Positions 3,599 through 12,764 of a stretch of DNA of 64,000 bases are shown piece by piece (the stretch's first letter is position 1; each line of letters begins with the position of its first letter). The stretch is from Corynebacterium sp. sy039 (GTDB lineage: Bacteria > Actinomycetota > Actinomycetes > Mycobacteriales > Mycobacteriaceae): positions 434,001 through 498,000 of the forward strand of contig NZ_CP042325.1 in assembly GCF_007904105.1 (NCBI RefSeq), written 5' to 3'. The notes below the pieces were generated by a model that had not been told where the DNA came from, searched no databases, and worked only from the letters and a program-made list of their open reading frames with translations. A program made the position numbers and the translations under genes.

Positions 3599-4675
3599 AT
3601 GCACTTGCTTGAAACCCGCATTGATCTTTCTGCCATTGCACATAACACAGCGCACCTCAAAAAAATGGTTGCTCCTGCACAGCTCATGTGCGTGGTAAAA
3701 GCAGATGCATATAATCATGGCGCTGCACGTGTAGCGCCTGTGATGGCTGCACATGGGGCAGACCAGTTTGGTGTTGCAACGATAGATGAGGCATTGGCAC
3801 TGCGTCGCAGTGGTATCACACAACCAATCTTGTGTTGGATCTGGTCGCCGGAGCAAGATATTCTTGCAGCGATTGCCGCAGATATTGACCTGGCGATTGT
3901 TTCGCCTCACCATGCTTACGCCCTGGCAGGTAAGAACGCGCGAGTATGTGTGAAAGTAGATACTGGATTACATCGTTCTGGAGTGGATCGGCAGGACTGG
4001 CTGGATGTGTTTGGATTCTTAAAATCGCACCCGGAGCTGGAAGTGACCGGTTTATTTAGCCATTTTGCGTGTGCAGATGATTTATCTAGTTCCTATACGG
4101 ATCAACAATTGGCTGTTTTTCATGAAGCAATTGAGTGCGCCCGTGCTGTGGGGTTAAGCATTCCGAAAAACCACATTGCTAATTCTCCTGCGACCTTATC
4201 GCGCCCTGATACCCATTGTGATATGGTTCGCCCTGGTGTGGCGATTTATGGTATGGAGCCAATTTCTGGGCGTACGCATAACCTGCGTCCAGCATTATCA
4301 TGGGTGGGGAAAATTACTGTGGTTAAACCTATTCGAGCGGGTGAGGGCAGTAGCTATTCTCTGACCTGGCATAGTAAACGCGATGGTTATATTGCTGTGG
4401 TTCCGGTGGGTTATGCAGATGGTTTGCCGCGTATGGCTCAGGATCATCTCGAACTTACCATTAGAGGACATCGCTATAAACAAGTGGGTCGTGTTTGTAT
4501 GGATCAGATAGTGGTGGATTTGGGAGATAATGTTCATGGCGTATCTCCTGGTGATGAGGCAATTATCTTTGGGGCTGGCGGCATGAGCGCCACGGAGTTA
4601 GCGCAACGGCTAGGTACGATAAACTATGAGGTCATTTGTCGCCCTGGCGGACGTAGCGTGCGAGTGTATCACTAA
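3599..4675 (+). CDS. alr: Alanine racemase
   Basis: Pyridoxal-phosphate enzyme that interconverts L- and D-alanine for peptidoglycan, cytoplasmic. The protein is 358 residues from the chosen ATG. The PLP lysine lies in VVKADAYNHGA near residue 36, the other catalytic region is YIAVVPVGYADG, and RVCMDQIVVDLG is the conserved C-terminal motif. The frame is open further upstream, to 3530, but family members start at a segment like MHLLETRIDL, so the ATG at 3599 was chosen over the ATG at 3587. No Shine-Dalgarno precedes it. A weak -10-like TGATAT lies just upstream, so a leaderless start is possible. The next gene, tsaE, begins 15 bp downstream and is probably co-transcribed. Confidence 0.95.
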   Translation: MHLLETRIDLSAIAHNTAHLKKMVAPAQLMCVVKADAYNHGAARVAPVMAAHGADQFGVATIDEALALRRSGITQPILCWIWSPEQDILAAIAADIDLAIVSPHHAYALAGKNARVCVKVDTGLHRSGVDRQDWLDVFGFLKSHPELEVTGLFSHFACADDLSSSYTDQQLAVFHEAIECARAVGLSIPKNHIANSPATLSRPDTHCDMVRPGVAIYGMEPISGRTHNLRPALSWVGKITVVKPIRAGEGSSYSLTWHSKRDGYIAVVPVGYADGLPRMAQDHLELTIRGHRYKQVGRVCMDQIVVDLGDNVHGVSPGDEAIIFGAGGMSATELAQRLGTINYEVICRPGGRSVRVYH

Positions 4676-11257: not shown

Positions 11258-11824
11258 GTGAATAGTCATGAAGAAGAACTAGCAAAGGTGGTGCCTTTGG
11301 CTGTTGCTGGTGATCTTCAGGCTCTAGAAAAAGTAATTCGGATTATTCACCCGCTCGTCGTGCGTTATGCTCGCGCCAGGATAAATGGCGATCAGCATCC
11401 GACGGCAGATGATGTTGCCCAGGAAATTTGTTTTGCAGTAGCTACTTCTATGAGAAGCTACACGGATCGTGGAAGACCTTTTATGGCATTTGTCTACGCG
11501 ATTGCTTCTCATAAAATAGCCGATGCGCATCGAAGTTATTTTAAGGACTTATCGAGTCCAACTGCAGAATTGCCAGAAGTCGAAGATCGACATTCTCCTG
11601 AAGAGTATGTTCTGGTAAGCGATGGTAGTAACAAAGTCCGTCAGCTTCTCGATTCACTGAGTGAAAAAGCGCGCGAGGTTTTAATACTGAGAGTTTTTGT
11701 TGGGTTAAGTGCCGAAGAAACAGCAGAAATAGTAGGAAGTACGCCAGGAGCGGTAAGGGTTGCACAGCATCGTGCGTTAACGGCATTAAGAAAAATTATT
11801 GAATCAGGAGAAAATAATGGGTAA
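11258..11824 (+). CDS. sigD: ECF RNA polymerase sigma factor SigD
   Basis: A 188-residue ECF sigma factor. Region 2 includes the -10-recognition part (TADDVAQEICFAVATSM, about 47-63, and FMAFVYAIASHKIADAHR). Region 4 is the helix-turn-helix VLILRVFVGLSAEETAEIVG then AVRVAQHRALTALRK. The start is GTG, with AAAGGA about 10 bases upstream. The place beside whiB3 and before rsdA and guaB matches Rv3414c. In C. glutamicum SigD is reported to govern mycomembrane synthesis genes. The last eight bases overlap the start of the next gene, the anti-sigma factor, so the two are translationally coupled. Confidence 0.93.
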   Translation: MNSHEEELAKVVPLAVAGDLQALEKVIRIIHPLVVRYARARINGDQHPTADDVAQEICFAVATSMRSYTDRGRPFMAFVYAIASHKIADAHRSYFKDLSSPTAELPEVEDRHSPEEYVLVSDGSNKVRQLLDSLSEKAREVLILRVFVGLSAEETAEIVGSTPGAVRVAQHRALTALRKIIESGENNG

Positions 11825-12764
11825 GCGAGATGAGAAAAATAGTCGGGGGGGGGGCTTGAATTCTTCAATTCTTCATGAGCTAAAAAGCGATGAAGAGTAC
11901 ATAGCGTGCTTGTCGCGAGGCGAAGTTCCTGCATCAGGGCATGATGGCACGATTGATCCTAGTGCTACCGCATTATTAGCTTTGCGTAAAGAGATTCTGA
12001 CTGATGTGCCACCCCCACCTACATTGGCGCAATTAGGAATTACTGATGCGTCGGGGTCTGTATCGGAGCCGTTGGCTGGTGCGAAATCTCGGAGATACCG
12101 TGGATTCTTTTCTGCTGCGCTCATGGGGGCTGCGGCAGCAACATTTGTTATCGCAGGCGGTGGACTAGCTATTCATTCTGCACAACAAGATTCTGCGCTT
12201 TATGGTTTGCGGCAAGTGCTTTTCGGCGACCAAGAATCTCATGAGGATGTTATTCAATTAGCTAGCACTTTAGATCAAGTGCGTGAACTCAATGCTGCCG
12301 GGGATACTGAAGGTGTGCAGCGTTTATTGACGCAAGCGCAGTCTATTGTGGATAATCTTGCGCCGGTAGATCGTGAGCAGGCAAAAGAAGTGCTTGAGAA
12401 AACTGAGCAAAGTATTACTGAACAGCCAAGCGCAGAGCAGCCACCACAGGTAACTGGTGCTGAAAAAACTAATATGCCACTTCCGACGAACGCACCCAAT
12501 GGCGTTGTTGGGGCGGAATTACCTGGCACGCAGCCATATACGCCTAGTGATGTTATGGTGCCAGAAACGCCTACAGTGATAGAACCTCATACATCAGCGG
12601 TAGAAATGGCAGAGCCTGTTGCACAGCAAGAAGTAATTTCTGCCGCTGTACCTGAACCCCAGTCGCCCTTGACGCAACCTATAGAGCTTCTCGACGAGCT
12701 TCGAGATTCTTTGGCACATCTTCCTGATGAATCTCCTGGGGATGTTCTCAATCCAGTTCATTAA
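11817..12764 (+). CDS. rsdA: Anti-sigma-D factor RsdA
   Basis: A 315-residue membrane protein. The N-terminal cytoplasmic part (about 1-95) includes the short sigma-binding segment KSDEEYIACLSRGEVP. A single membrane helix lies at about 96-120 (FFSAALMGAAAATFVIAGGG), and the outer part is Pro/Gln/Glu-rich. It is equivalent to Rv3413c, which holds SigD inactive until it is degraded. The ATG lies inside the end of sigD (8-base overlap); an in-frame upstream start at 11799 is less likely. Codons 10-13 are made of a run of ten G (11845-11854). Loss or gain of one G leads to a stop within 12 codons, so the gene is a candidate for on/off switching of the SigD regulon. Confidence 0.88.
   Translation: MGKRDEKNSRGGGLNSSILHELKSDEEYIACLSRGEVPASGHDGTIDPSATALLALRKEILTDVPPPPTLAQLGITDASGSVSEPLAGAKSRRYRGFFSAALMGAAAATFVIAGGGLAIHSAQQDSALYGLRQVLFGDQESHEDVIQLASTLDQVRELNAAGDTEGVQRLLTQAQSIVDNLAPVDREQAKEVLEKTEQSITEQPSAEQPPQVTGAEKTNMPLPTNAPNGVVGAELPGTQPYTPSDVMVPETPTVIEPHTSAVEMAEPVAQQEVISAAVPEPQSPLTQPIELLDELRDSLAHLPDESPGDVLNPVH
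11845..11854 (+). repeat. Homopolymeric G tract (10 G) in the rsdA coding region
   Basis: Ten consecutive G begin within codon 10 of rsdA (CGG GGG GGG GGC). With 9 G the frame meets TGA directly after the tract; with 11 G it meets TGA eight codons after it. Only changes of three bases keep the protein. Long G tracts near the 5' end of genes are a classic basis of slipped-strand phase variation. Confidence 0.95.

Follow-up and report, generated by a model that had tools for sequence, protein, structure and literature searches.

The anti-sigma factor gene rsdA of Corynebacterium sp. sy039 contains an uninterrupted tract of ten G residues in codons 10–13, and this tract is probably a slippage-prone repeat of the contingency type, in which ten G would keep the gene on, nine or eleven G would turn it off and free the sigma factor SigD, and the change would be reversible. 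The tract occupies positions 11845–11854 (plus strand) of the window, the 64,000-nucleotide stretch of DNA that was analyzed, just where the first-pass annotation had placed it. It is one of 37 G/C runs of at least nine bases in the genome, many of them resembling genetic on/off switches. The tract and its reading frames, the identity of the gene, the genome-wide set of tracts, and the length differences among paralogues are all direct observations.

The rsdA–sigD locus and its G tract

The sigD gene (positions 11258–11824, plus strand, with a GTG start) encodes an ECF sigma factor that matches NCBIfam model NF007230 with 266.8 bits against a cut-off of 209, and Corynebacterium is the source of the three top-ranking named sigD records. 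Directly downstream, rsdA starts at an ATG (11817) that overlaps the final bases of sigD, whose stop codon is at 11822–11824, and the AGGAG at 11806–11810 (plus strand) is likely its ribosome-binding site. The rsdA ORF (11817–12764, plus strand) encodes an anti-sigma-D factor of 315 amino acids and is in frame, or “on”, in this assembly. Matches to it occur in 191 of 242 genomes of the genus, and the five top-scoring relatives share 37–41% identity with it. Within sigD, a motif search returned GTAAC-15-CTCGAT at 11628–11653 (plus strand; 0.01 expected), a match to PrsdA, the SigD-dependent feedback promoter. This motif is present in all 33 rsdA loci read, the window locus included, and a SigD-dependent PrsdA with the same 15-nt spacing is described for 37 of 38 species of the genus (PMC6338062).

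An alignment of 25 sequences (A1), comprising the window RsdA, the RsdA of another assembly (P0001), 20 genus loci among L002–L030, and three named loci, revealed a conserved core and a membrane segment. The core spans approximately residues 19–68 (11871–12020, plus strand) and is presumed to bind SigD, while a membrane helix is predicted with low confidence at residues 95–120 (12099–12176, plus strand), where a GAAAAT segment is conserved. The G tract sits ahead of the core, in a variable N-terminal tail. Eleven of the 25 aligned proteins, none of them the window protein, matched Pfam model RsdA_SigD_bd (PF16751) with E-values no greater than 1 and 2.2e-5 at best. Neither the RsdA protein by itself nor the alignment retrieved an anti-sigma relative from solved structures, and an AlphaFold2 model built from five sequences was poor (mean pLDDT 44.8). 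Gene order, promoter, and alignment support the reading of the gene downstream of sigD as an RsdA-type anti-sigma gene.

What is reported for the C. glutamicum system bears on what loss of RsdA could mean. There, MarP and Rip1 cleave RsdA, cells that have lost rsdA are viable, with constitutive SigD and raised surface exposure of porin, and an N-terminally HA-tagged RsdA is functional (PMC11175481). Since cells of that species survive the loss with active SigD, an off state is compatible with the physiology of the system, and since the tag is tolerated, the tract-bearing tail is probably not critical.

In sequence, the tract consists of the codons CGG GGG GGG GGC, which encode Arg-Gly-Gly-Gly; judged by codon frequencies in 51 ORFs of the window, the probability that these four residues would be encoded in this manner is ~3e-4. 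Loss of one G yields a 13-residue product that ends at a TGA (11857–11859) one codon beyond the tract, whereas gain of one G yields a 20-residue product that ends at a TGA at 11876–11878 (plus strand). The initial annotation, which had placed these stops just after the tract and eight codons on, respectively, was correct in its arithmetic. Tracts of 7 or 13 G would preserve the rsdA frame. Thus, a one-base change in a mononucleotide tract alters the reading frame here, which is one of the criteria for a contingency locus. An in-frame TTG (codon 14; 11856–11858, plus strand) abuts the tract and overlaps the TGA of the −1 frame, and might serve as a start for renewed translation ahead of the conserved core.

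The run had also been described as rare in A/T-leaning DNA. It is indeed the sole run of at least eight of any base within the window, but with 52.7% A+T the DNA leans toward A/T only slightly, and the rarity does not extend to the genome, where G/C runs of at least eight number 42, 37 of them at least nine long.

Among other rsdA loci, a G run longer than five at the gene start was found in none of the 32 that were read, namely, 29 of the 30 best genus loci (the window’s own being omitted) and three named loci. The start codons of these loci were picked by script, and the runs scored were those of G within the initial 150 nt for 20 loci, those of G and C for nine, and those of at least six for three. 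Genus-wide conservation of the tract is thereby ruled out for the loci read, and the trait looks species-specific. In P0001, encoded on a 665,516-base contig, the Arg-Gly-Gly-Gly is kept in frame, and the protein differs from the window RsdA by two substitutions, both outside the tract residues. P0001 represents a four-member protein cluster, and in this one member, compared at the protein level, neither an off allele nor a change of tract length was seen. As for the close relatives to which the first-pass annotation had pointed, then, the tract is absent from 32 loci of other species and its residues are kept in one sister assembly.

G and C tracts across the genome

The genome comprises 2,236,339 bases in one contig. 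On both strands together, it contains 120 G/C runs of exactly six bases, 11 of seven, and 5 of eight, followed by 37 of nine or more, whereas extrapolation from the sixes and sevens predicts only ~0.1 run of at least nine. Between one and seven such runs occurred in each of six genomes simulated with a third-order Markov model of the window, a model that also overpredicts sixes (293–323) and sevens (59–78). A or T runs of at least nine number seven in the genome. This run-length distribution disfavors a chance origin of the rsdA tract. Within the 242 genomes of the genus, only two possess more G/C runs of nine or longer, G008 (54) and G020 (60); both consist of ~20 contigs, and by eye several of their listed runs are clustered or lie at contig ends.

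The 37 tracts can be sorted into three classes, designated A (20 tracts), B (seven), and C (ten). Class C consists of the isolated tracts left after removal of the 27 in the two repeated classes, and includes that of rsdA. Its other members are situated within or ahead of genes for an MFS transporter and three ABC-transporter ATPases, of hsdM, and of genes that lack a Pfam match. Outside class B, 22 of 30 tracts are exactly ten bases long.

Class A is probably a larger finding than the rsdA tract. It comprises 20 paralogous genes (e.g., L152, L154–L158, L144, L145, L147, and L150, all in the genome of the window) with a C tract inside an N-terminus that, judged by its sequence, looks like a signal peptide. 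The position of the tract is shared among the genes, and two copies have nine C there, 14 have ten, and four have eleven. Only five of the 20 are in frame, namely all four with C11 and a single, divergent one with C10; the other 15 are out of frame, and in 19 of the 20 the in-frame length differs from the commonest length. Sister loci in one genome hence differ in tract length, a further criterion for contingency loci. A class A homologue in another species (L172, from G241) has a C10 tract at base 1215 that lies upstream of the gene, outside the signal peptide.

Length differences between strains were sought among the gene calls of cluster representatives, a comparison made at the protein level. 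P0002, from Corynebacterium sp. SY003, shares 89.9% identity with the C11 gene at genome position 611298, which is in frame, but crosses the tract in another frame. Identities to the other three C11 genes are 93.0%, 98.5%, and 96.5% for P0009, P0023 (both from sy017), and P0019, respectively, and these three proteins are called from starts beyond the tract, without the signal-peptide start. How a frame maps to a gene call could be calibrated in the genome of the window itself, since nine C10 genes with database entries there are likewise called from starts past the tract, and P0010, a gene with C9, from a start of the P0002 type. Other tract lengths in sister assemblies are implied by these calls at up to four class A loci. 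The idea of tract-length variation first raised for rsdA is strengthened by this large set of similar tracts, whose lengths differ between paralogues and, as deposited proteins suggest, between strains.

The proposed switch, its alternatives, and precedents

A strong match to the repair protein NucS (148 bits) was found in the genome, with a second of 26 bits elsewhere, and a profile search returned no match to MutS_V. NucS is reported not to repair indels of 1–2 bp in M. smegmatis (PMC11551767). Given the many G/C tracts, the length differences at sister loci, and a NucS without MutS_V, slippage at the rsdA tract is likely, and on/off variation of the gene is plausible. Slippage at rsdA itself, its effect on SigD in this species, and any benefit are inferred.

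The switch would work as follows. At ten G, RsdA would be made and would hold SigD at the membrane. Replication slippage, uncorrected in a NucS-bearing, MutS-less lineage, would then give rise to cells with nine or eleven G, in which RsdA would be cut short, SigD free, and the envelope regulon on without an inducing stress, until a second slip restored rsdA. The gene is on at the commonest tract length, ten, which would leave most cells on and off cells in a minority; few of the latter are to be expected. This setting of the frame is the reverse of that in 19 of the 20 class A genes. The two off states may also be unequal. Because the TGA of the −1 frame overlaps the TTG, with the G run as a leader, the −1 state may leak and be perhaps only partly off through a restart at codon 14, whereas in the +1 state, which has no such overlap, RsdA would be expected to be fully off. 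The earlier claim that slippage turns RsdA off and frees SigD is upheld in part, as to the frameshift and, from C. glutamicum, as to the consequence of rsdA loss (PMC11175481), but needs amending in that the −1 off state may be incomplete.

Other explanations of the tract merit consideration. It is rather unlikely that the G run is a neutral hitch-hiker, lengthened by slippage without indel repair in a tolerant tail, with off cells simply being lost and no strategy involved. The location of the tract in an unconserved tail ahead of the core fits such a history, as do the varying length of the RsdA tail (homologue L012, for instance, has a Gly-Ser-rich one), the working HA-tagged protein of C. 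glutamicum (PMC11175481), and the in-frame state of P0001, the sole other copy compared. Yet 27 of the 37 runs of at least nine bases fall into two repeated classes tied to secreted proteins, the ten isolated tracts lie in or near a few genes concerned mostly with transport, surface, or restriction, and runs of seven are scarce. If the off state were costly, moreover, synonymous interruption of the run should have been favored.

The overlap of TGA and TTG could alternatively indicate a rheostat, in which the Shine-Dalgarno-like G run promotes a restart at TTG codon 14 after a −1 slip, yielding an RsdA of 302 residues in which the core is complete; tract length would then tune the amount of protein. 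Sequence geometry would permit this, and homologues L020 and L021 have about equally short tails, given the starts chosen here, but TTG is a weak start codon and +1 shifts would not be rescued, and the rheostat is quite improbable. As for the run length being an assembly or sequencing error, long homopolymers are error-prone in some sequencing technologies; however, the ORF is intact at ten G and a separate assembly, that of P0001, encodes the same four residues in frame, which makes an error highly improbable.

The contingency-type reading can be extended, more tentatively, to the biology of the cell. In a genome with dozens of poly-G/C switches, the SigD envelope-stress response would also be under the control of one, with random, reversible loss of RsdA generating a minority of cells with a constitutively remodeled mycolate envelope, in graded form (leaky at −1, off at +1). 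Should this hold, a mutational anti-sigma switch would, at random and in a few cells, also pre-set a stress response that ordinarily depends on induction. The locus would then represent a regulator-level contingency locus in an actinobacterium, and would offer a natural setting in which to test the influence of indel-blind NucS repair on variation in the mycomembrane.

By analogy, the closest precedent is the G5 repeat of mucA in Pseudomonas aeruginosa (G5-SSR426), where slippage in a G run (mucA22) causes loss of an anti-sigma factor (PMC2781719, PMC8875331). In both cases, anti-sigma slippage would free an envelope-related sigma factor, and the mucA repeat is reported as absent from the related species surveyed (PMC2781719), just as the rsdA run is from the loci read. 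The mucA repeat differs in consisting of five G at position 426 whose slippage is especially marked upon loss of mismatch repair, as against ten G at codons 10–13 of rsdA; easy reversal would be expected at rsdA, since ten G reside there in a genome without a MutS_V match. Phase variation of an anti-sigma factor, which the first-pass annotation had considered an unusual form of bet-hedging, can thus be called so only with a qualifier, as anti-sigma G-run slippage is already known from mucA (PMC2781719). The hpuA and hmbR genes of Neisseria meningitidis similarly have long G tracts, in or near surface genes, whose length alters expression, but the targets there are surface-exposed molecules (PMC8875331), whereas a sigma-factor regulator in an actinobacterium would be affected here. 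Homopolymer indels acting as phase variants are known from another actinobacterium, Mycobacterium tuberculosis, although the glpK (PMC6667613) and ESX-1 (PMC11898584) cases concern, by their titles and the starts of their abstracts, no anti-sigma gene. The SigD–RsdA system of C. glutamicum shares the adjacent sigD and rsdA, PrsdA, and a membrane-anchored anti-sigma factor (PMC11175481, PMC6338062); it is set apart by the G run, to the extent that none of the 32 other loci, among which C. glutamicum is not necessarily included, has one longer than five. A search of open-licence literature on phase-variable corynebacteria and anti-sigma factors found no paper on the present case.

Promoter-type elements, hsdM, and SigD promoter matches

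The seven class B tracts are G11–G13 runs in similar intergenic elements and resemble promoter spacers. They are located at genome positions 56863, 63032, 65143, 265652, 309938, 553244, and 2111711 (labels L151, L159, L160, L161, and L148). At four of them (56863, 63032, 309938, and 2111711), a large ORF whose N-terminus is signal-like begins 54–62 bases downstream; no such ORF was called at the remaining three. One ORF product, L160:4093-7200, has a C-terminus of the VTTGGHLRAA type in common with class A proteins, two classes that otherwise differ, and P0028, P0030, and P0031 have related endings. This C-terminus is possibly a sorting or anchoring signal.

The hsdM gene of a type I restriction system (genome 958704–961159, minus strand; L165) is shortened at its C9 tract. 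It encodes 550 amino acids, as compared to mostly 812–827 among the 120 best listed matches, and phase-variable methylation is possible. The HsdM of another assembly, P0034, has 548 amino acids and the same shortened tail, with no variation seen between the two, so not every tract varies. Together with the 20 signal-peptide tracts and seven promoter-type tracts, the hsdM tract would make this Corynebacterium strongly phase-variable within its genus; judged by titles and the starts of abstracts in open-licence literature, no description of strong phase variation in Corynebacterium was found.

SigD promoters were considered as drivers of the tract families and set aside, given no clear excess of matches near these families (18 versus 12 expected under mononucleotide shuffling of 265,628 bases). 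A single one of these matches has a tract within 600 nt. It is a SigD-promoter-like motif in L162, near base 4144 on the minus strand and 87 nt from the tract at genome position 745757, with a spacing shorter than that of PrsdA.
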